From Longimicrobium sp. (lineage in GTDB: Bacteria; Gemmatimonadota; Gemmatimonadetes; Longimicrobiales; Longimicrobiaceae), in the NCBI RefSeq assembly GCF_035474595.1, contig NZ_DATIND010000116.1:1-64000 (forward strand): a stretch of DNA of 64,000 nt, read 5' to 3'. Position numbers and translations under genes: made by a program. Of this stretch, positions 24,500 to 35,454 are shown piece after piece (the stretch's first letter is position 1; every line of letters begins with the position of its first letter). The notes below the pieces were generated by a model. It worked only from the letters and a program-made list of their open reading frames with translations. It searched no databases and was not told the origin of the DNA.

Positions 24500-26410
24500 T
24501 CAGGGCCGGCTTCCTCCGGCGGCAGATCGTGGAGTCGATCCGCCCTCAAGGTTCGCCCCGGTACCGCCGCGGACGTCGAAGTCGGCCCAGATCGTATATG
24601 TCCGGGAGATCCGGACGCTGTCACCCGCGTTGTTGTACATCTGCCAGTGAACGCGATAATGACCCGGTATTGACGGCCCTCTGAAGGGAGCACGGAAGGT
24701 GTACGTCCCCTGTGGAGGTACCGGCCGGCCCGTGACGGCTTGCGGAAGCGAACGGTTGGCAAACTCCGGATCGGATCGCACACCCGTCAGGCGGAGTGCG
24801 CCCTTCGGCCAGGTGCAGTCGCCTCGGTTCAGCAGCGTCCACTCCTTCGGGATCCACGCGCCCGGCGACACCGTGGAACCGTCCACGACGGATTCGGTGT
24901 TCATGAACGTCACCACCTCTTCCCCGGGCGCGCACTCGGCTGCGGATGCACGGATTTCACCCTCCCGCGACACGATCAGCCGAATGTCCACACCCGGCTC
25001 GTCCGAGACACGCACCACGCCACCGTCCGGGCCGGTCAGCTCCCACGCTTCGAGGTACGAGCCATCCGGACCGGGCGCCTGCATCGAGACGTGGAAAGCA
25101 TATCCGAACGACGGCAGCACGGGCTCCTCCACACGAATGACAGACAAAGTGCTGTCGCTCAGCCTGGGACCGCTGGCGCTGCGGAAGCGCAGCGCCACCG
25201 ACGAATCCCAGACGCATTCTCCCCGGTTCGCGATCGACCAGCTCACCGGGATACGTTCTCCGGGACGGACCCGCGTATCGCGCCGCGGATGACTCTGTGC
25301 CAGCAGTTCGGCCACAACCTCACCTGCGCGACACACCGGCAGCCGGGGTGGGAGCACCTGGAAACGCACGTGCAGCGCCGCGCCCTCCGCAATGCTCACG
25401 GGTTTCGCGAACCCGTCCTGAAGCACCCAGTCTTCGCCGTAACGGCCCGCCGGCTTGGGCCCGCGTAGGCCGATCCCCACCTCCGCCACGCCTCCCGGCT
25501 GCACCACGTGGCCAATTCGAGCCGCGATATTCGAGCTGAGCTGCGCCGGGCCGAAGGCGCGGACGCGGACCACCCGTGCCCCCGCGCCCCAGGCGCAGGT
25601 GCCTACGTTCCTCAGGTACCAGGTGGGTGTGTACCGCTCGCCCGTGCGTATCGCCAGGTTCGCCTCTGCCGGATAGGTCTGCCGCACCAGTTGGGCGCGC
25701 GCCTCGCCGGGCCGGCAGGTAGAGGCCGCGCCCGGCGTTCCTGGCCCCGTCAGCAGCATGATTCCCACTCCGCAGGCGGCCAACGCCATCCCCAGCCGAG
25801 GGATTCGGGCGCTTACCCGGGCCTGTTTCGCCCGGCTGGTCCACTCCTCGTCCCCCGTCCATCCGGGCAGCGACTCGCGGCCCTTCCGTGCGAGCTCGCG
25901 TACCCGGCTCCAGTCCCTTGTGGATGACGCGGCGGCGAGGTGCTCCTCCAGCCCCCGCTGCAACCCGGTGGAGAAGCCGGCGCGACGCTCCTCCATCCAG
26001 GCGAGAAAGCTCTCGGCACCTTCGCCGAGCCGGAACTCAAAGCCATCGAGGAACGGCGCCCGGTGCGCCTCCAGTGCGCGGCTGAATGCCGCCGAGTCAC
26101 CCACAGCAGCGTCCGCCAACACCGCGTCGGCGTCGCACGCGAGGTCTCCTGCCAGCATCACCGGATCGGCGCCGGGCGGAATTGCCCCTTCCGGGAGCGA
26201 ACGCCGGAGCGCCGAGATGGCGGTGTTGACGGAATTGTTCCGGCCGATCGAGATGTTGGACCACAGCAGCCGCCCGAGTGCGCCCCGCGTGTGCGCACGG
26301 GCCGTGACTCGCAGGTAGACGAGGAGCGCGAGTTCCTTCGCGTTCAGGCGGACATCGCCGTGCTCGCCGCGGAGGGCGGGGGTGCCGAAGGTGTGCAGGA
26401 ACAGAGGCAT
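24500..26410 (-). CDS. Membrane-anchored SARP/BTAD regulator with three NBR1-type Ig domains
   Basis: 636 residues. Residues 1-95 fit the OmpR-like winged helix of SARP/BTAD activators (RLNAKELALLVYLRV, then RGALGRLLWSN, NSVNTAISALRRSL). About 100-200 is the helical BTAD region (FLDGFEF, ESFLAWMEERRAGF). One transmembrane helix follows (about 207-222). The rest lies outside the cytoplasm as three repeats with the NBR1 Ig-like pattern: WYLRNVGTCAWGAG, WSIANRGECVWDSS and WTLLNRGDCTWPKG. The layout suggests a one-piece transmembrane transcription factor sensing an envelope ligand. It diverges from the lectin-CHAP gene, and a two-heptamer site lies between them. Confidence 0.75.
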   Translation of the reverse strand: MPLFLHTFGTPALRGEHGDVRLNAKELALLVYLRVTARAHTRGALGRLLWSNISIGRNNSVNTAISALRRSLPEGAIPPGADPVMLAGDLACDADAVLADAAVGDSAAFSRALEAHRAPFLDGFEFRLGEGAESFLAWMEERRAGFSTGLQRGLEEHLAAASSTRDWSRVRELARKGRESLPGWTGDEEWTSRAKQARVSARIPRLGMALAACGVGIMLLTGPGTPGAASTCRPGEARAQLVRQTYPAEANLAIRTGERYTPTWYLRNVGTCAWGAGARVVRVRAFGPAQLSSNIAARIGHVVQPGGVAEVGIGLRGPKPAGRYGEDWVLQDGFAKPVSIAEGAALHVRFQVLPPRLPVCRAGEVVAELLAQSHPRRDTRVRPGERIPVSWSIANRGECVWDSSVALRFRSASGPRLSDSTLSVIRVEEPVLPSFGYAFHVSMQAPGPDGSYLEAWELTGPDGGVVRVSDEPGVDIRLIVSREGEIRASAAECAPGEEVVTFMNTESVVDGSTVSPGAWIPKEWTLLNRGDCTWPKGALRLTGVRSDPEFANRSLPQAVTGRPVPPQGTYTFRAPFRGPSIPGHYRVHWQMYNNAGDSVRISRTYTIWADFDVRGGTGANLEGGSTPRSAAGGSRP

Positions 26411-26449: not shown

Positions 26450-26467
26450 CTTTAGAGACGCTTTAGA
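26450..26467. promoter_or_regulatory. Predicted SARP-type operator (two direct heptamers)
   Basis: CTTTAGA-GACG-CTTTAGA: two identical heptamers separated by 4 bp, giving an 11-bp period, the known layout of SARP/OmpR-type half-sites on one DNA face. It lies 40 bp from the regulator start and 261 bp from the lectin gene start. The remainder of the 317-bp spacer shows nothing else certain; AAGGAGGTGA near 26635 has no start codon at a useful distance. Confidence 0.5.
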
Positions 26468-26727
26468 CCCCCGCCCATTCCCACGCACGACCGCCCTGGC
26501 AATCCTTGTCGCGCCTGTAAATGAGGCAACCCGCCGCCCGAACCGCCACCGTCAAGCCCGGTCGGCGACAATCTTCGGACACAATCTATCGAGAAACGCC
26601 GGCGAGTGGAACGTGTGACGGCGGCGGACCTGGAAAGGAGGTGAAGCGGACCCGCACGTGGGGATTGTCGGGAGCACCGGCTTCCGATCCATGTCACGTA
26701 CGCCATCCTGAACTGGAGGAACTCCCG

Positions 26728-28104
26728 ATGCGCAATTTCGACGCACACCCACCCCGCTCCTCGGAGTCCACTGCCGTCCCGGTTGCCGCTTCCACGTCCA
26801 CGGGCGAGCGCCGATGGGCGCAGTTCGTCCTCCTCGCGCTTGCCCTCCTTGTCCTGGGCGGTTGCGGCGAATCCGGCTCGCCGCTCGGACCCGTCCGCGG
26901 TCCGGCGTCCGCCCCGGGCGCCGACGCGGTGCCGCCGTCCGGGTGCGGCCGCCTGCTCCCGGGCGAGTCGCTGCAGCAGGAACAGTTCGCCGTGTCGTGC
27001 AACGGCGTGGCGGAGCTCATTCTCCAGACGGATCAGACGCTGGTGATGTACGACTCCGCGGGTGCCTCGTGGAACGCGCCGAATACCGGCGCCCAGGGAA
27101 CGGCGTTCGTCCAGATGCAGGGCGACGGCAACCTGGTCGCGTACGATGCGGCGCTGCATCCGCTCTGGGCGACCGGCACCGCGGGGCACCCGAACGCATG
27201 GCTCGCGGTCCAGAACGACTGCAACCTGGTGATCTACGCCGGACCGTTCCCGCAGGGCGGCGCCGTGCTCTGGACGAGCAACACCTCGTGCCGGGCGCCT
27301 CGGCCCGCCGCGGGCCGGATGCTGCCGGGCGACCGCCTCTCGCGCACGGTGGAGGTCAGGTCCGTTGCCGGCAATGCCACGCTGGCGGTTCAGGGCGATG
27401 GAAACGTCGTGCTCTACGGCTGGCAGGTCCCGCTCTGGACGGCCCCCAACACGGTGAACCACGGGACCAGCCTCCTGATGATGCAGGGAGACGGGAATCT
27501 CGTGGCGTCGGACGGCAACGGGGTGGCGTTGTGGACCTCCGGCACCGGCGGGCACCCCGGCGCCTGGCTCGCCATCCAGGACGATTGCAACCTCGTGATC
27601 TACGCGGGACCATATCCCCAGACGAACGGCGTGCTATGGGCATCGGGCGCCGTATGCGCGCCCAACCGCCCGATTGGGGACGACTACCCTCGCTCATGGA
27701 TCATCGGCCCACCCTGCACGACCGGCGGAGACACATACAACTTCGTGAAGTCGAACTGCACTTCGTTCGCGGCCTGGCGTCTCGAACGGGATGGCAAGCG
27801 GATCAGCAACTTCGACGGTAACGTACCCTCGTACGTCTGCTCGAACGGCCAGCCGAAGACGAGATGGTCCGACGCCACCTGCTGGGATGAAGCGGCACGC
27901 AGGCTGGGCCTGCGCGTGGACAAGTCGCCGGAGATCGGGGCAATCGCGCAGTGGAACGGAACGACAGGTCACGTCGCCTACGTCTCGGCCCGGTTCCTGG
28001 ACACCGGCGAGATCCTGGTCGAGGAATACAACTACTCCACCGGCTGCCGCTACGGGCGCCGCCGCATTCCCGCCGTGGCCGTGGAGAACTACATCCACTT
28101 CTGA
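26728..28104 (+). CDS. Lipoprotein with two bulb-lectin domains and a CHAP hydrolase domain
   Basis: 458 residues. N-terminal signal with lipobox LGGC (acylated Cys46). Two B-lectin (monocot mannose-binding) repeats, about 80-200 and 205-325, show the QxDxNxVxY sugar-site pattern: MQGDGNLVAYD, VQNDCNLVIYA, VQGDGNVVLYG, MQGDGNLVASD, IQDDCNLVIYA. The C-terminal about 120 residues form a CHAP/NlpC-like amidase with Cys in SNCTSFAAW and His in TTGHVAYVS. This suggests a sugar-targeted peptidoglycan hydrolase on the cell surface. I start at ATG 26728 because GGAGGA lies 7 nt upstream; longer frames to 26521 add no signal. It probably answers to the divergent regulator. Confidence 0.8.
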   Translation: MRNFDAHPPRSSESTAVPVAASTSTGERRWAQFVLLALALLVLGGCGESGSPLGPVRGPASAPGADAVPPSGCGRLLPGESLQQEQFAVSCNGVAELILQTDQTLVMYDSAGASWNAPNTGAQGTAFVQMQGDGNLVAYDAALHPLWATGTAGHPNAWLAVQNDCNLVIYAGPFPQGGAVLWTSNTSCRAPRPAAGRMLPGDRLSRTVEVRSVAGNATLAVQGDGNVVLYGWQVPLWTAPNTVNHGTSLLMMQGDGNLVASDGNGVALWTSGTGGHPGAWLAIQDDCNLVIYAGPYPQTNGVLWASGAVCAPNRPIGDDYPRSWIIGPPCTTGGDTYNFVKSNCTSFAAWRLERDGKRISNFDGNVPSYVCSNGQPKTRWSDATCWDEAARRLGLRVDKSPEIGAIAQWNGTTGHVAYVSARFLDTGEILVEEYNYSTGCRYGRRRIPAVAVENYIHF

Positions 28105-28281: not shown

Positions 28282-29946
28282 TCAGTACGCGTGCTGGTGG
28301 ATGCCGCGGACGGCGCGGCCGGACGGGTCCGTGACCGCCGCGAGCGAGGCGTCCCACGCCAGCGCCTCGGGAGTGCTGCAGGCCACCGACGGGCCCGCGG
28401 GGACGCACGCCGCGGCCGAGTCCAGCGCGAAGTGCTCGGCGAAGAGCGAGCGGTAGAGATACGCCTCCTTGGTGGCCGGCGTGCCGATCGGGAAGCGGTA
28501 GCGGGCAACGGCAAGCTCGCGGTCGCTCACCTCGCCCTCGGCGTGCGCGCGGAGCGCATCGATCCAGCCGTAGCCCACTCCGTCCGAGAACTGCTCCTTC
28601 TGCCGCCAGACGATGGAATCCGGGAGCGCATCCGCGAAGGCCTCGCGCAGGATGTGCTTCTCCATCTTCCCGCCACCGGCCATCTTCGCCGCCGGATCGA
28701 TCCCCATCGCCACGTCCAGGAAGTCGCGGTCCAGGAAGGGGACGCGCGCCTCCACGCCCCACGCGGCCATCGCCTTGTTGGCGCGCAGGCAGTCGAAGCG
28801 GTGCAGCCGGTCCAGCTTGCGCACCGTCTCGTCGTGGAAGCTCCGCGCGTCGGGCGCGCGGTGGAAGTACAGGTATCCCCCGAAGATCTCGTCCGAGCCC
28901 TCGCCCGAGAGCACCATCTTCACCCCCATCGCCCGGATGCGCCGCGCCATCAGGTACATGGGCGTGGCCGCGCGGATGGTGGTCACGTCGAAGGTTTCCA
29001 GGTGGTAGACCACGTCGGAGAGCGCGTCGATCCCCTCCTGCGCGGTGAAGTGGAACTCGTGGTGCACCAGCTCCAGGTGCGCGGCCACCTGGCGCGCGGC
29101 GGCCAGGTCGGGCGCGCCCTCCAGCCCGATGGCGAAGGAGTGCAGCCGCGGCCACCACGCGCCGCTCTTCCCCTCGTCCTCCACCCGCCGCGCCGCGAAC
29201 CGCGCCGCGCACGCCGCGATCACCGACGAGTCCAGCCCGCCGGAAAGGAGCACTCCGTACGGCACGTCGCTCATCAGCTGCCGCCGCACGGCCGACCGCA
29301 GCGCCGAGCGCACCGCGGTGGCATCGGCGGGCGCGCCGCGGACCGCGTCGTAGTCGCGCCAGGCGCGGTGGTACCAGCGCCGCGGCTCGGCGTCGCCACT
29401 CTCCCACAGGTGCCCAGGCGGGAACTCGGCCACCTCGCGGCAGACGGGGACCAGCGCCTTCATCTCCGACGCCACGTACAGGTTCCCCTCCTCGTCGCGC
29501 CCGGTGTAGAGCGGCACGATTCCCATGTGGTCGCGGGCGATGAGCCACCGGTCGCGCTCCGCGTCGTACAGCACGAAGGCGAAGATGCCGTTCAGCTCGC
29601 CCAGGAAGTCCGCGCCGCGCTCGCGATGGAGCGCCAGGATCACCTCGCAGTCCGAGTCGGTGGCGAACGCGAACGGCTGGCGCAGCGACGCGCGCAGCTC
29701 GCGGTGGTTGTAGATCTCGCCGTTCACCGCCAGCACCAGCGTGCCGGTGGAGTCGCGCAGCGGCTGCGCGCCGTGCAGCACGTCCACGATCGCCAGCCGC
29801 TCGTGCGCCAGGATCGCGCGGTCGCAGGCGTACACGCCGGACCAGTCGGGGCCGCGGTGGCGCTGCAGCGCGGACAGGCGCAGCGCGCGGGCACGCAGCG
29901 GCGCCGCGGGCCCGTGGATGTCGAGGATGCCGAGGATGGAGCACAT
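28282..29946 (-). CDS. asnB: Asparagine synthase (glutamine-hydrolysing)
   Basis: Makes asparagine from aspartate, ATP and glutamine. N-terminal glutaminase domain (1-200) with nucleophile Cys2 (MCSILG), RHRGPDWSG and NGEIYNHRELR. C-terminal synthetase domain with the PP-loop LLSGGLDSSV, GEGSDEIFGGY and EARVPFLDRDF. 554 residues, complete. ATG 29946 follows GGAGGT. The minus-strand leader carries an Asn-rich leader ORF, an antiterminator segment and an intrinsic terminator, consistent with attenuation by Asn-tRNA level. Confidence 0.95.
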   Translation of the reverse strand: MCSILGILDIHGPAAPLRARALRLSALQRHRGPDWSGVYACDRAILAHERLAIVDVLHGAQPLRDSTGTLVLAVNGEIYNHRELRASLRQPFAFATDSDCEVILALHRERGADFLGELNGIFAFVLYDAERDRWLIARDHMGIVPLYTGRDEEGNLYVASEMKALVPVCREVAEFPPGHLWESGDAEPRRWYHRAWRDYDAVRGAPADATAVRSALRSAVRRQLMSDVPYGVLLSGGLDSSVIAACAARFAARRVEDEGKSGAWWPRLHSFAIGLEGAPDLAAARQVAAHLELVHHEFHFTAQEGIDALSDVVYHLETFDVTTIRAATPMYLMARRIRAMGVKMVLSGEGSDEIFGGYLYFHRAPDARSFHDETVRKLDRLHRFDCLRANKAMAAWGVEARVPFLDRDFLDVAMGIDPAAKMAGGGKMEKHILREAFADALPDSIVWRQKEQFSDGVGYGWIDALRAHAEGEVSDRELAVARYRFPIGTPATKEAYLYRSLFAEHFALDSAAACVPAGPSVACSTPEALAWDASLAAVTDPSGRAVRGIHQHAY

Positions 29947-30005
29947 GCGAGCTACCTCCGGTCGTCGGGTGGGTGGGTCGCGGATCCGGAGGTCGAGGGG
30001 AGATG

Positions 30006-30042
30006 AAAAACGAAAGCGGCTCCTCGATCTCCGAGGAGCCGC
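30006..30042 (-). terminator. Intrinsic terminator/attenuator in asnB leader
   Basis: Read on the minus strand: GCGGCTCCTCG, 5-nt loop, CGAGGAGCCGC, then TTTCGTTTTT; a perfect 11-bp stem 60 nt before the asnB start. AGGAGCCGC at 30097-30105 (minus) copies the terminator 3' arm and can pair over 9 bp with the 5' arm, forming an exclusive antiterminator. Confidence 0.85.
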
Positions 30043-30072
30043 CTGGTGGCCCTGCAGCGTGCGTTCGTCCGC

Positions 30073-30156
30073 CTACGACAATGCGCGCCCGGTCCCGCGG
30101 CTCCTGGAGGAGTCGGGATTGAGGCGATTGTTCAGGTTGCGGAAGATCGCGCGCAT
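30073..30156 (-). CDS. Candidate Asn-codon leader peptide of asnB
   Basis: A 27-codon ORF starting MRAIFRNLNNRLNPDSSRS. Four of residues 7-13 are Asn (positions 7, 9, 10, 13). The last Asn codon ends 13 nt before the antiterminator segment, so a ribosome stalled there would leave it free to pair, whereas one reaching the stop (30073-30075) would cover it. The in-frame GTG at 30168 is another possible start. No ribosome binding site is visible, which lowers confidence. Confidence 0.55.
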   Translation of the reverse strand: MRAIFRNLNNRLNPDSSRSRGTGRALS

Positions 30157-30313
30157 CGGGAAAGCCACGGTTGCAGGTGCCGGCCGCGCGCCGGCGTCTT
30201 TCGGAAGATCATCACGAAGCCGCGAGTCTGTCAACGGGGGCGGCGGCACCGCTCCGGGCTTCGTGGGAGATTCGAAAAGGTTCATCGCAGAGCTCGCTGC
30301 ACTCGTACGCGAA

Positions 30314-30346
30314 AAGGCCCTGCATCGCAAGTCGATGCAGGGCCTT
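30314..30346 (-). terminator. Terminator hairpin beside the tRNA fragment
   Basis: 14-bp perfect stem AAGGCCCTGCATCG / CGATGCAGGGCCTT, 5-nt loop. It lies 9 nt beyond the 3' end of the minus-strand tRNA fragment, the position of an original tRNA terminator; on the minus strand an A/T-poor tail follows. Confidence 0.6.
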
Positions 30347-30355
30347 CGCTTATTC

Positions 30356-30409
30356 TGGTCGGGACGGCCGGATTTGAACCGGCGACCCCCTGAACCCCAT
30401 TCAGGCGCG
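30356..30409 (-). pseudogene. tRNA-Pro(GGG) 3' fragment
   Basis: Read on the minus strand: anticodon stem CCTGA/TCAGG with loop ATGGGGT (anticodon GGG), variable loop GGGTC, T arm GCCGG-TTCAAAT-CCGGC, acceptor 3' strand CGTCCCG, discriminator A and encoded CCA. The matching 5' half (CGGGACG acceptor strand and D arm) is absent from the sequence beyond 30409. A tRNA 3' half with CCA is the usual footprint of a tRNA-targeting integrase (att site). Confidence 0.75.
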
Positions 30410-30434
30410 TTCCGGCACGAAGTTCGGCAAGCTG

Positions 30435-30878
30435 TTGGGAACCATCGATGTTCCGGAAGAGCCCTGCCGGTGTCATCGAGGAATCTGCCGGGTTCCGCCG
30501 GAAGCGCATGCCCAGAATTATACCCAGCTTGGAGCCTCCCTGACTGATCATCAGGAAGCGTCTCCGGGGCAAGCGCCGTCGGACCCGGAACCGAGCGCCA
30601 CGACTCCAGCAGGGAGCGCGGAGGTCCAGGAATTCGAGCAGCAGCTGGCTCTCCTGGCCGATGCATTGCTCGCCCGCGGGCGGGCGCCCGACGCCGTGGC
30701 GCTGCGCACGCTGGAGACCGAGATCGAGCCGCGCTCCGTGGACGGCCATGCGGGGCTGGGACTGGCGCTGGTGCGGGCGGGCAGGATTTCCGAAGCCCGC
30801 GCCGCCTTCCGCCGCGCGCTGGAGCTGGACCGCTACGACACCCGCGCGATGGAGTGGCTACGCCGCCCGGGAGGCTGA
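30435..30878 (+). CDS. Protein with short TPR-like C-terminus, probably 5'-damaged
   Basis: Residues from about 40 onward look like real protein: an acidic linker, a helix (EVQEFEQQLALLADALLARG), and a tetratricopeptide-like repeat GHAGLGLALVRAGRISEARA with AAFRRALELDRYDTRAM. The first 35 residues encoded from 30435 look like random translation of the scar region and the frame lacks a convincing start after them. I suspect the original 5' end was lost when the tRNA-linked element inserted or excised. Partner and function unknown. Confidence 0.4.
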   Translation: MGTIDVPEEPCRCHRGICRVPPEAHAQNYTQLGASLTDHQEASPGQAPSDPEPSATTPAGSAEVQEFEQQLALLADALLARGRAPDAVALRTLETEIEPRSVDGHAGLGLALVRAGRISEARAAFRRALELDRYDTRAMEWLRRPGG

Positions 30879-31130
30879 GCCGGGACGCCCGCCCGTCATA
30901 ACTGGCCGGAGGAATTCCACGGCAGGCGGCGACGCGCGGAGTGTCCCGCCTGTGGAACGATTCGCGTCGACGAGCGGGCACATCAGGATCAAGATCATCT
31001 TGCGACAGTCGCCTTCGCAGCGCGATGATGCGTGGCATGTCTCGCGGGTCGCTCCGGTCCCACAGTCTCGCGGCGGGGCGTGAGCCGGGCACTCGAACGA
31101 AGATGCAGTCGGCCCGTCTCCCCACGGCCG

Positions 31131-31256
31131 TCACATCTGCGCGCCGCCGTCGATCTCGATCACCCGGCCGGTGAAGAACCCGCACTCCAGCACGAAGCGC
31201 AGCGCGAGCCAGACCTCGCCGGGGTCGCCGAAGCGCCCGAGCGGGATCGCGGCCAC
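31131..31256 (-). pseudogene. C-terminal scrap of a short-chain dehydrogenase/reductase
   Basis: About 40 residues reading IPLGRFGDPGEVWLALRFVL, then GFFTGRVIEIDGGAQM and stop: the invariant C-terminus of FabG-like SDRs. The Rossmann GxxxGxG and YxxxK parts are missing and nothing upstream on the minus strand continues the homology. Confidence 0.7.
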
Positions 31257-31384
31257 GGCTTTCCAATCGAGGACGCTGCTTCCTCCCCAGGTGTGAGACT
31301 TGCGGTTCCCGTGTCCCGCTACCTGGCCCATTCGACGCGCGGCCGCGGCGGAACGGCGAGCGTCCGGGCGTTCCGACGGAATCC

Positions 31385-31413
31385 TTGCAACCGGAACTTG
31401 CGGTTCCTAGCTT
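31385..31413 (+). promoter_or_regulatory. Candidate promoter at the head of the biosynthetic cluster
   Basis: TTGCAA (31385-31390), 17-bp spacer, TAGCTT (31408-31413). The spacer holds an inverted repeat GGAAC-TTGCG-GTTCC that could be an operator. Predicted start about 80 nt before ATG 31499. Confidence 0.4.
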
Positions 31414-31498
31414 GGCGATGCTGTCGGCGTGGGAGAGCTCCTTGCCGGAAGCGCCTCCTCCTCCGTTTCCGCCGACGTCCTTCTACCCTCCGTTCCCC

Positions 31499-32866
31499 AT
31501 GCTGCAGATCAGCGCAGAGCCGCGCGCGACGGAAAAACGCCGGAGTGAAGCCGCGGGGGCGCCGCGGCCGGATACGGCCCCGCCGGCGGCGGAGTTCGCA
31601 CCCTCCGGGAAGCTGCTTCTCACCGGGCACCCCATCGCCGAAGCCCTGGAGACGTTCGGGACCCCGCTGTACCTGTACAGCGAGTCCGTGCTCCTGGACA
31701 ACCTGCGGAGGATCACGGACGCGGTTACCTATCCGGACACAAAGTTCTACTTCGCCATGGTGACGAACCGGGCTTGGCCCGTGCTCTGCCGCGCCGCCCG
31801 GTTCGGATGGCGTTTCCACTTCAACAGCCCCCTGGAGGCGGACGTACTGGCGTGTGCGCTCGAGCGCGGCGGGCTTTCGCGGGCGGAGATGGAGGCCTGC
31901 CTTGCCGAATCGGTGTTTTCGGGGGGGAGCATCTCACGGGAACAGATGATGGCGCTGGTGCGGCACGGGACGTACGTGCACCTGACCGCCTGCGACCAGA
32001 TCCCTGCTTACGCCGGCGTAGCGGCCGCGACGGCGGGCGCGCCGCGGGCGGTTGGGCTGCGCGTGCAGTTCGACGACAACATGCAGCGGGCGCGGCAGGG
32101 CGTCTCCGTGTCCGAGATCCCGGAGACCCTGGCGCTCGCCCACGCCCACGGGCTGCGCATCACCTCGATCCACATGTACCGGGGGACCGGGACCGCGTCG
32201 GCCGAGCGGTTCGCTGAGCCCTTCGCCCGGTTCGCGGAGATCGCGGAAGGCTTTCCCGACCTGCTGCACGTAGACATCGGAGGCGGGTTCGGGTACGACT
32301 ACGAGACCCGGGGCGCCCGGTTCGACTGGCGCGCCCTGAACGCCTTCGTGGAGGGGCTGATGCGGCGGATCAACGCGCACTTCGGCCGTACCCTGACGCT
32401 GCGGCTCGAGATCGGCCGCTCCGCCGTGGCATCGGCCGGCGTCTTCGCGACGCGCGTGCTGTCCCGGAAGCCGGGTTTTTCGGAGCGCGAGGTCATCCTG
32501 GGCGTGGATGCGTCCTCCATGAGCGTGCGGGCCGCGGCGCCGGCCGTGGTGGGCAAGCGCCACCACTACTTCCTGGAGCGGCAGCGGCCGGGCGCGGATC
32601 GCGACGATCTGTACACGCTGGTCGGGCCCACCACCTACACGAGCGACTACTTGGCGAAGCGGGTGCGGATCGCCGGATGCGGGGAGGCTGGGGTACAGCC
32701 GGGCGACACGCTCGTGTTTCTGGACTGCGGGGCGTACGGGGCCGTCACGCACAGCGAGTTCCTCACCACTCCCCGGCCGGCGGAGGCGATGATCACCGAA
32801 GACGGCGAGTTCCTGCCCATCACCCGCCGCGCGGGCGTCGAGCAGATTACCTCTCACTGGGCGTGA
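31499..32866 (+). CDS. Group IV decarboxylase-like protein lacking the PLP lysine
   Basis: 455 residues from ATG 31499 (ATG 31418 or TTG 31385 are possible longer starts; none has a ribosome binding site). It aligns by eye with diaminopimelate/ornithine decarboxylases of fold type III: barrel start KFYFAMVTNRAWPVL, then a glycine-rich DIGGGFGYDY, EIGRSAV and the C-terminal FLDCGAYGAVTHSEF. In active members the first motif is YA(V/L)KAN and its lysine binds PLP; here the residue is Val88 (FAMVTN). The phosphate-binding glycines remain. So it is either a non-PLP protein, a regulator or scaffold, or a divergent enzyme. First gene of the cluster. Confidence 0.75.
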   Translation: MLQISAEPRATEKRRSEAAGAPRPDTAPPAAEFAPSGKLLLTGHPIAEALETFGTPLYLYSESVLLDNLRRITDAVTYPDTKFYFAMVTNRAWPVLCRAARFGWRFHFNSPLEADVLACALERGGLSRAEMEACLAESVFSGGSISREQMMALVRHGTYVHLTACDQIPAYAGVAAATAGAPRAVGLRVQFDDNMQRARQGVSVSEIPETLALAHAHGLRITSIHMYRGTGTASAERFAEPFARFAEIAEGFPDLLHVDIGGGFGYDYETRGARFDWRALNAFVEGLMRRINAHFGRTLTLRLEIGRSAVASAGVFATRVLSRKPGFSEREVILGVDASSMSVRAAAPAVVGKRHHYFLERQRPGADRDDLYTLVGPTTYTSDYLAKRVRIAGCGEAGVQPGDTLVFLDCGAYGAVTHSEFLTTPRPAEAMITEDGEFLPITRRAGVEQITSHWA

Positions 32867-32900
32867 CGGTGCAGACCACGAACCGGAGCACACCGCGCCG

Positions 32901-33767
32901 ATGATCGAGGGCACCTTCCTGGAGCGCATGTCGGACCCGCACGTCGCCGGGCGCCGGGCGCTGCTGGAGGCGGGCCCGGTGCTGCCCGCCCCTTCCGCAC
33001 CCGTGCGGGCCGCCTCCGCGGAGGGGTTTCCCCGTGCGGCCGAAGCAGAGATCCGGGACGACCTGCGGGCGCGCGGCTTGGCGGTCGTGCAGCTCGACGA
33101 GCCGGTGCCGGCGGACCGCTTCCTTGCACTGGGACGGCTGCTGGGCACGGCCATGCCCGAGACGGATCCCGCCGTGCAGCCGCAGGTGGAGCAGCAGGTG
33201 ATCCTGCACCTGGTCTCCCGGCACGGGCACACCCGTGATGTTGCGCTGCAGCCCTTCGCCACCCAGGCCCTTACGCTCCACACCGAGAGCAGCGCCCGGC
33301 CGGCCGCCGCCCAGCCCCGCTACATCGTCCTGATGTGCCGCGACCCCGGAGACGACGCCACCGCGGCCCAGACGGTGCTCGTGCCGATGGCGGAGGTGCG
33401 TGCGCGGATCACGCCGGAACAGCTTGCCCTGCTCGCGAGCACCCGGTACAGGAACAGCGCCAGCGTACCCTTCATCGTCCGGCACGAGGAGGGCCGCGTG
33501 GTGTTCTCGTTCCGGGATTTCCACGAGCACCCCCTCGACTGGGCCCACGCGGCCCCGGACGCCGCCGCCGACGACGTGAACGGCGCCCTGCGGGGGCTGC
33601 TTGCGGCGATGTACGCGCCGGAGGGGGCGACGGGCATCCACTGGAACCGGGGGATGCTGGTGATCATGGACAACACGTTCCATTTCCACGGGCGTACGGC
33701 GGGTGCGGTAAACCCGTCCAGCCGCCCGCGCCACCTGCAGCGGCTGCGCATCATCGCGCCCCCGTGA
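32901..33767 (+). CDS. Fe(II)/2-oxoglutarate oxygenase (AsnO/VioC-like amino acid hydroxylase)
   Basis: 288 residues. The metal triad is His127-x-Glu129 (LHTESS) and a distal His263 (FHFHGRTA), with Arg265/Arg278-type residues placed to bind 2-oxoglutarate. An HxE instead of HxD motif is typical of the clavaminate-synthase-like group that beta-hydroxylates free amino acids (AsnO, VioC). The substrate cannot be read from sequence; a free or carrier-bound amino acid is likely given the nearby carrier protein and NRPS genes. It follows the decarboxylase-like gene by 34 bp. Confidence 0.78.
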   Translation: MIEGTFLERMSDPHVAGRRALLEAGPVLPAPSAPVRAASAEGFPRAAEAEIRDDLRARGLAVVQLDEPVPADRFLALGRLLGTAMPETDPAVQPQVEQQVILHLVSRHGHTRDVALQPFATQALTLHTESSARPAAAQPRYIVLMCRDPGDDATAAQTVLVPMAEVRARITPEQLALLASTRYRNSASVPFIVRHEEGRVVFSFRDFHEHPLDWAHAAPDAAADDVNGALRGLLAAMYAPEGATGIHWNRGMLVIMDNTFHFHGRTAGAVNPSSRPRHLQRLRIIAPP

Positions 33768-33816
33768 GCTTCCGCGCCTGCGCGCCGAAGCACCCGGGTC
33801 ACCATCGGGATTCCGA

Positions 33817-35454
33817 ATGCCGAAGTTATTCGATACGCTCCCGTCCGCACCCACGCCGCCCGACCTGCCGGGTGCCGCCTACCAGGCGGCTGCTCGCGCC
33901 GGCGCCGTCCGTCACGCCCGTGAGAGCTACGTGCCGGTCCTGGACGCGCACGTCCTGGAGGTGTTCGAGCGCGCGCGAGACCCCCGCGATCCGTTCGAGC
34001 TGCGAGACCTGTGGCTGGGCCGGGTGGAGCACGGCGCGGGGGTGCCGGGCCACCGTCCGCGGCTGGTGGAGCAATGGCGGGGCTCTCGGCGGCGGCGCAC
34101 CGTCGAGCCCGAGGAGGTCCTGTCGTCGCGCGCAGCCGTGCGCTTCGTGAAGGAGCTCTTCAACTGGTTCTTTCGGGAAGACCTGTACGGAGACCTGCGC
34201 GACAGCGCGCGGGTCATCCTTTCCAGCGGCTCCGTGGACGAGGAACGCTGGGGCCTTCCCAGGGCGTTCAAGGCATGCGTCTCGTACGCCCTGGAGCGGG
34301 ACTGGTACGGGTATTCCGACTCGCGGGGGCGGGTCCCGGCGCGCGAGGCGGTGGCGGCGTACGAGACGGCGCGCATGGCCGCGGGCGGCTACGGGGCGGA
34401 CAACGTGGCGCTTACCATGGGGGGCACCTTCGCGGTGAGCTCCCTTGCCGACTTCATCCTCGGGAACTCGGCCGTGGCGGCCCCGGTGCTGTGCGCCATC
34501 CCCAACTATCCCCCCCTGGTGGAAGCCGTCGCGCGGCGCGGCGGCGTGCGGCTGGTCCCGCTGACGGCCACGCACGGGACCGTGTCCCTGGACCCGCTCA
34601 TTGCATCGCTCACCCCAGGCACACCCCTGGTGCTCCTGCAGACGGCGGCCAATCCCACCGGGGCCGCCGTTCCCGAGGCGGAGCTCGCGCGCCTCGTGGC
34701 CAGCGCGTCGCCCTCCACCACGATCCTGCTGGACGAGTGTCACGAGTGGCTGGGGCCCGTCCAGCCGTTCTCGGCAGCGCGCGCCGCGCCGAACGTCGTC
34801 CGCATCTCCAGCCTGTCCAAGGCTTGGTCGGCCCCAGGGCTCAAGATCGGGTGGATACTGGCGGACGCGCGGTTCATCTCGGAGTACTACGAGTACGCCT
34901 CGACCACCTTCGGGGGCCCGCCTTCCTTCTTCTATACGGCGGTGGAAGTGCTGGCCCGCATGGAACGGTGGATTCTGGAAGGTGTCGACACGCCGGGACC
35001 CCGCGAGATGGCCGAGTTCGAGGCGTCGTACGGACTGGACGTGCGCGGGCTGAGCGAGGGATATCGCAGCTACCGCGAGGAGCGGCGGTCGCGCGAGCAC
35101 GCGCTCACCACCCTGCGTGCCGCGGCCGTCGCCGCCCTGGACGGGCCCTCGGCCCACGTGATCGCGCCCCGCTGCTCCATCAATCTGGCGGCCGAGTTCC
35201 CCGAGTGGAACGACTCGTACCGCTGCTTCCGGGAGCTCCTGCGGGATACCGGCGTAGCGGTGTTTCCGGGGATCCTGACCTTCTGCTTTTCCGGCGGGCT
35301 CATGCGGATCACCACGTCGCGGCGCTGGGAGGACCTGTGCTTCGGCCTCGAGCGGCTGGGCGGGCGGCGCTCCATGCGCGTCCAGCCGGACGATTGTGCT
35401 GTGGCCCCGGCGTACGGAGCCGCGGCGGCGGCGGTCCCGGGAGCGCACGCTTGA
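33817..35454 (+). CDS. PLP aminotransferase, class I/II fold
   Basis: 545 residues, longer than a standard aminotransferase (about 400) because of an N-terminal region of about 110 residues before the fold begins (FNWFFREDLYGDL). Motifs: YGYSDSRGRVPAREAVAAY, the Asn of TAANPTGA, the Asp of ILLDECHEW, and the internal aldimine lysine Lys335 in SSLSKAWSAPGLKIGW. Fold type I, aspartate-aminotransferase class. Likely makes or consumes an amino acid or amino-sugar building block in this cluster. The next gene starts at a TTG inside its stop. Confidence 0.85.
   Translation: MPKLFDTLPSAPTPPDLPGAAYQAAARAGAVRHARESYVPVLDAHVLEVFERARDPRDPFELRDLWLGRVEHGAGVPGHRPRLVEQWRGSRRRRTVEPEEVLSSRAAVRFVKELFNWFFREDLYGDLRDSARVILSSGSVDEERWGLPRAFKACVSYALERDWYGYSDSRGRVPAREAVAAYETARMAAGGYGADNVALTMGGTFAVSSLADFILGNSAVAAPVLCAIPNYPPLVEAVARRGGVRLVPLTATHGTVSLDPLIASLTPGTPLVLLQTAANPTGAAVPEAELARLVASASPSTTILLDECHEWLGPVQPFSAARAAPNVVRISSLSKAWSAPGLKIGWILADARFISEYYEYASTTFGGPPSFFYTAVEVLARMERWILEGVDTPGPREMAEFEASYGLDVRGLSEGYRSYREERRSREHALTTLRAAAVAALDGPSAHVIAPRCSINLAAEFPEWNDSYRCFRELLRDTGVAVFPGILTFCFSGGLMRITTSRRWEDLCFGLERLGGRRSMRVQPDDCAVAPAYGAAAAAVPGAHA

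Follow-up and report, generated by a model that had tools for sequence, protein, structure and literature searches.

A Putative Transmembrane SARP with Three NBR1-Ig Domains, Encoded Head-to-Head with a Predicted Cell-Wall Hydrolase in Longimicrobium

A gene of Longimicrobium sp. encodes in one polypeptide a SARP-like half resembling activators of antibiotic clusters, one helix and three NBR1-type domains, a combination that an earlier sequence-only reading of this DNA had proposed and that Pfam, sequence profiles and structural models bear out. The gene lies in the window, that is, the whole stretch of 64,000 nucleotides analysed (GC 72%; genome 6.6 Mb). With a probability of roughly 0.6, its product is a transmembrane one-component envelope sensor that switches its own gene and the divergent gene of a lectin-CHAP lipoprotein. 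The two best functional clues are this divergent hydrolase and a SARP-type box, both absent from the sequence-only reading. In the proposed mechanism, a stack of three disulfide-braced NBR1-Ig domains outside the cytoplasm would detect a ligand or a state of the envelope, and the change would be relayed by the single helix to a cytoplasmic unit made of the winged helix and a short BTAD. This unit would bind the heptamer-repeat box in the shared intergenic region and thereby switch, presumably by activation rather than repression, the regulator's own gene and the lectin-CHAP lipoprotein gene; sister copies would pair likewise with other secreted hydrolases of the BACON-M23, Big/FN3-M23 and BACON-CHAP kinds.

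Table 1. Features of the regulator locus (positions in the window)
Feature	Position	Strand	Basis
SARP-TM-(NBR1-Ig)x3 regulator gene, 636 aa	24500..26410	-	ORF, Pfam, homologs, AlphaFold
OmpR-type winged-helix DNA-binding domain, residues 1-75	26186..26410	-	Trans_reg_C 4.6e-5; PDB profile matches; model
Shortened BTAD-like helical domain, residues 90-200	25811..26143	-	Foldseek AfsR/EmbR; alignment
Predicted single transmembrane helix, residues 203-221, N-in/C-out	25748..25804	-	Hydrophobicity, K/R bias
NBR1-Ig domain 1, residues 232-352, Cys pair 232/272	25355..25717	-	Pfam, profiles, AlphaFold
NBR1-Ig domain 2, residues 360-480, Cys pair 360/399	24971..25333	-	Pfam, AlphaFold
NBR1-Ig domain 3, residues 493-613, Cys pair 493/532	24572..24934	-	Pfam, profiles, AlphaFold
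Predicted SARP box, CTTTAGA-N4-CTTTAGA direct repeat, 11-bp period	26450..26467	.	Repeat search, conservation
Divergent lectin-CHAP lipoprotein gene, 527 aa as called	26521..28104	+	CHAP 1.2e-10, B_lectin 4.7e-8 (Pfam)
CHAP catalytic domain of the divergent gene	27736..28032	+	Pfam; phage matches

Domain Content and the SARP Half

Three matches to Pfam N_BRCA1_IG were found in the regulator (whole-protein E 1.6e-33, 115.9 bits against a gathering score of 28), the single domains scoring 49.6, 39 and 38.2 bits. The start codon is backed by N-termini conserved among the orthologs, and the architecture is not a product of chance, because it is common to six other full or near-full homologs from the genus or class and to one frameshifted ortholog. 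These seven genes comprise a paralog in the same genome, two genes of G301 and one each in G273, G300, G180 and G177, the last being of another genus. In the G273 ortholog (L025, G273 C199 6235-8099) the frameshift falls between the winged helix and the BTAD, and either a sequencing error or a pseudogene could account for it.

An OmpR-type winged helix, as a SARP should have, is found at the N-terminus on the basis of fold and of a weak Pfam Trans_reg_C match (E 2.6e-4 in the protein itself, under the gathering score; E 4.6e-5 in the family-wide run). A profile of eight homologs was used for a PDB profile search, in which the winged helix matched CadC (7e-4), and for AlphaFold modelling of the full protein, which returned a winged helix, helices over residues 93-200 and three beta-sandwiches (pLDDT 77); CssR and ToxR were also among the PDB profile matches of the winged helix. 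When residues 1-200 were modelled with ten relatives, the pLDDT rose to 92, and Foldseek against the PDB placed AfsR (8k60, E 2.9e-7) and EmbR (2fez, E 8.2e-5) in the first six positions, with domains of PhoP, GlnR and CadC ranking below. The claim of a SARP/BTAD half in the sequence-only reading thus stood as regards the fold, while the BTAD proved to be shortened: the helper domain ends where the last BTAD helices would start, the terminal helices of full SARPs being absent from the alignment, and Pfam BTAD was matched in six of ten family members (best 7.7e-20) but not in the regulator itself. These models support descent of the regulator from SARPs, with a helper domain that has become shorter. 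The shortening makes activation by contact with RNA polymerase less certain.

Predicted Membrane Topology

The hydrophobic segment given in Table 1 has a Kyte-Doolittle peak of 1.69 and is the only one above 1.6 in the regulator. All seven homologs have their peak in the corresponding position (1.67-2.52; 1.98 and 2.52 in two orthologs), and an excess of K/R lies on the N-terminal, cytoplasmic side in seven of the eight proteins, the regulator included. The sequence-only reading would have been undermined by a helix that does not span the membrane; a membrane-spanning helix is predicted in all eight homologs. A DNA-binding domain and a predicted transmembrane helix are accordingly combined in one polypeptide, as in ToxR-like regulators, and the regulator is predicted to be membrane-anchored with its Ig domains outside the cytoplasm. 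Each Ig domain has a Cys pair, present in all sequences at every column (8/8 or 7/7) with a spacing of 38-41 residues, and only one recurrent Cys is found in the cytoplasmic half of the family; the conserved pairs would fit an oxidising compartment, in which disulfides may form. That the regulator is instead cytosolic, with the hydrophobic stretch forming a buried helix, would agree with its moderate hydrophobicity and with the cytosolic location of eukaryotic NBR1 itself, but this is highly improbable in view of the helix carried at the same position by the homologs, with values up to 2.52, the positive-inside bias in most of them, the confinement of the conserved Cys pairs to the outer side, and the AlphaFold model, in which the helix near residues 211-219 has low pLDDT and is poorly packed.

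A membrane helix could also serve merely as an anchor, with the Ig domains acting as a brake until a signal triggers regulated intramembrane proteolysis and frees the regulator. The anatomy of the protein is compatible with such a mechanism, and the membrane-bound TcpP/ToxR regulators are known targets of proteolysis (PMC6598108, PMC11323476); yet neither a protease gene nor a cleavage site was recognised, and the OmpR-type relatives CadC and ToxR work from the membrane (PMC5430869), so that release by proteolysis seems very unlikely.

The NBR1-Ig Stack

The W-x-L-x-N-x-G-x-C-x-W pattern pointed out in the sequence-only reading is found three times in the protein, as W264YLRNVGTCAW274, W391SIANRGECVW401 and W524TLLNRGDCTW534. 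By profile search, residues 232-613 matched FW structures of NBR1/ILRUN (7vqo, E 5.4e-11; 6vhi, 8.1e-11; 4ole, 1.1e-9), and the concern that structure prediction might give other folds did not materialise, all three domains being modelled by AlphaFold as beta-sandwiches. A fold search with the full-length model returned only generic Ig stacks, and the FW identity therefore rests on the sequence profiles. The fold, the W positions and the N-x-G motif are common to the NBR1/ILRUN FW domain and the Ig domains of the regulator. The latter differ in being triplicated and in having a conserved Cys pair apiece, whereas no Cys is found in the eukaryotic W-x-x-x-N-x-G-x-x-x-W stretches aligned with them.

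Two further proteins of the genus carry the domain in other settings. One (L022, G286 C25 7458-8513) is a 351-aa protein with one clear NBR1-Ig match (E 9e-17) and no DNA-binding domain, in which an N-terminal hydrophobic segment is followed by a charged or coiled stretch; relatives of its N-terminal part are found on Ensifer and Rhizobium plasmids. The other (L026, G251 C68 7360-9288) is a secreted M23 peptidase whose polypeptide also includes two ricin-B lectin domains and gives a weak NBR1-Ig match.

The presence of the domain in proteins that lack a DNA-binding domain, one of them a membrane/coil protein and the other an M23-ricin-B fusion (by a weak match), together with the finding that eukaryotic FW domains bind proteins or protein tails (PMC9233695), would suit a stack that is only a stalk by which the regulator is anchored to envelope or hydrolase, the signal being sensed elsewhere. 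This is quite unlikely, since the stack is the sole part of the regulator outside the membrane and its three domains are kept in six of the seven intact homologs, the other having two. The overall envelope-sensor model also gains from the M23 protein of G251, in which the weak NBR1-Ig match lies in the same polypeptide as a wall-cutting domain. The neighbouring genes described below suggest that the signal read by the Ig stack may be wall or glycan.

The Divergent Gene of a Probable Wall Hydrolase

The regulator gene lies head-to-head with the lectin-CHAP lipoprotein gene, the likelier start of which is 26728 (M70), followed by a lipobox LGGC with Cys115. The motifs of the CHAP domain are intact, with the catalytic Cys and His (C413, H484) and E501 present; the protein also has B_lectin-like repeats, and its nearest annotated phage matches are endolysins or tail lysins. 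The lipoprotein is probably a peptidoglycan hydrolase. It is encoded by the only CHAP gene of the genome, in which nine M23 genes were counted. Further along the window (28282-35454), an asparagine-synthase-like gene is followed by genes for a PLP decarboxylase, a TauD-type dioxygenase and an aminotransferase, possibly a small biosynthetic cluster.

Similar arrangements are found at related loci. The paralog in the same genome (C50) lies head-to-head with a gene for an M23 peptidase with seven BACON domains, the G273 ortholog with a CHAP-lectin gene and one G301 homolog (C187) with a Big/FN3-M23 gene; at the other G301 locus (C114) the third gene on the divergent side encodes a CHAP lipoprotein with eight BACON domains. 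In total, a secreted hydrolase is encoded on the divergent side at five of the six in-genus loci with readable flanks, four times immediately adjacent, where the regulator locus (G000 C116) and G273 form one orthologous pair and are not independent, and the G180 locus is cut by a contig end. The probability that both NBR1-Ig SARPs of the window's genome would adjoin a CHAP or M23 gene by chance is about 3e-6, a rough figure that assumes random placement. No SARP of the NBR1-Ig kind was found alongside the other CHAP/M23 sites inspected, and the association therefore runs from regulator to hydrolase and not the reverse. The G300 ortholog has an HTH_3 gene and a beta-lactamase-family gene beside it instead of a hydrolase gene, and no such hydrolase neighbour was seen around the G177 homolog.

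The Intergenic Box

The two likely start codons are 317 bp apart, and the DNA between them holds a direct repeat, written CTTTAGA-GACG-CTTTAGA in the window and placed 39 bp from the start codon of the regulator. The published recognition pattern of SARPs is a heptamer repeated in direct orientation after a 4-bp spacer (PMC7040171), and the geometry of the predicted box agrees with it. A box-like repeat arises in about 3% of shuffles, so the repeat taken alone is weak evidence. In ten congeneric genomes the pattern occurs five times at up to two mismatches and three times at up to one mismatch, and all three of the latter lie upstream of the regulator and its G273 and G300 orthologs, at 39, 39 and 38 bp from box end to ATG; at that stringency the box is unique to these genes within the ten genomes. 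Pairwise identity is 14-15/18 in the box as against 19-21/60 and 8-12/36 in the flanks, which is near background. The G300 match is the most independent of the three, because the pattern itself came from the window and its first recurrence was noticed in G273. The hexamer CATTCC occurs in the window and likewise in G273, 8 bp past the box toward the CHAP gene. Upstream of the paralogs no similar box turned up, and no sigma-70-like promoter was recognised. A reading of GGAAT...TCTAA as an ECF-sigma promoter was set aside, its spacers being 9 and 20 where 15-17 is usual.

Since the G300 ortholog keeps the box without an adjacent hydrolase gene, the box may serve the regulator only. The protein would then be a transmembrane SARP that regulates itself through the box, the hydrolase gene not being a target and any true targets lying elsewhere or being the regulator gene alone, as the fixed distance of 38-39 bp from the regulator ATG, the 261 bp that separate the box from the likely CHAP start and the lack of a box upstream of the paralogs would allow. 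We consider this unlikely, because the repeated head-to-head pairing with hydrolases of differing architecture is hard to obtain by chance, and the CATTCC element toward the CHAP gene also speaks against it. Control of both genes by an envelope sensor is therefore preferred, and the regulator probably controls the wall-cutting enzyme encoded head-to-head with it. Against this stand the loci of G300 and G177, the paralogs without a box, the moderate transmembrane peak, the lack of a sigma-70-like promoter, the shortened BTAD and the fact that these organisms and genes are uncharacterised.

It can be speculated, although this is rather doubtful, that bacterial NBR1-Ig stacks constitute a distinct class of envelope sensors serving secreted wall-lytic enzymes, and that membrane SARP, SARP box and lectin- or BACON-armed hydrolase form a self-contained cassette that detects foreign or damaged wall and releases a lytic lipoprotein; such release would serve remodelling or attack on neighbouring cells.

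Relation to Known Regulators and Distribution in the Phylum

Transmembrane transcription regulators (TTRs) are a recognised and widespread class (PMC10269533). The regulator resembles those of the ToxR/CadC type (PMC10269533, PMC5430869) in its N-terminal OmpR-type winged helix, its single predicted transmembrane helix and its predicted outer C-terminal sensor, as well as in its PDB profile matches to CadC and ToxR; it differs from them in its SARP helper domain, in a fold nearest to AfsR/EmbR and in the NBR1-Ig sensor. The terms BTAD, SARP and NBR1 are absent from the main text of the TTR survey (PMC10269533). With the SARP family (AfsR, EmbR, ActII-ORF4) it shares the winged helix, the helical BTAD-like domain and, by prediction, the heptamer direct-repeat box with a 4-bp spacer, but its BTAD is shortened, it is predicted to be membrane-anchored and it has no NB-ARC domain. 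FW domains have been recorded in bacterial XRE regulators (PMC9233695, PMC9582228), where a DNA-binding domain, of the XRE type rather than SARP, is likewise joined to an FW domain.

In literature searches limited to open-licence papers, neither a published transmembrane SARP nor a SARP that combines a membrane helix and a stack of three Cys-paired FW domains with a SARP box and a dedicated wall hydrolase was found. The regulator gives the NBR1/FW domain, known from the animal autophagy receptor NBR1, a bacterial setting, with the domain predicted to be placed outside the cytoplasm and to carry disulfides, and it adds to the transmembrane regulators a SARP-based branch that is apparently common in one phylum. 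The locus also offers a predicted box of 18 bp together with a single predicted target in the neighbouring gene and a single candidate sensor.

Of 395 genomes in the phylum, 325 contain the SARP half according to a search with the whole alignment. The sequence-only reading had noted that SARPs are usually cytosolic, which fails in this phylum: among the 25 best SARP-half homologs outside the NBR1-Ig group, 20 have a hydrophobic helix C-terminal to the BTAD. These proteins have a homologous SARP half followed by a transmembrane helix, but differ from the regulator in having a full BTAD and TPR, TolB_N-like or PD40 C-terminal parts in place of NBR1-Ig. The NBR1-Ig domain is present in 8 of 298 genomes, and in 7 of the 10 of the genus, so that, judged by sequence, the NBR1-Ig SARP is a rare variant of the phylum-wide SARP-TM proteins. 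No close relative was found in named genomes with the protein and its alignments as queries, and a plasmid search with the whole protein gave no match. The SARP-TM proteins with TPR or PD40 C-terminal parts (L056-L080) appear to form a large lineage-specific family of membrane regulators. Two small membrane proteins of similar appearance (L046, 7698-8306; L023, 10281-10946), with weak DUF5683 and TM2 matches, are encoded divergently from two NBR1-Ig SARPs of different genera.
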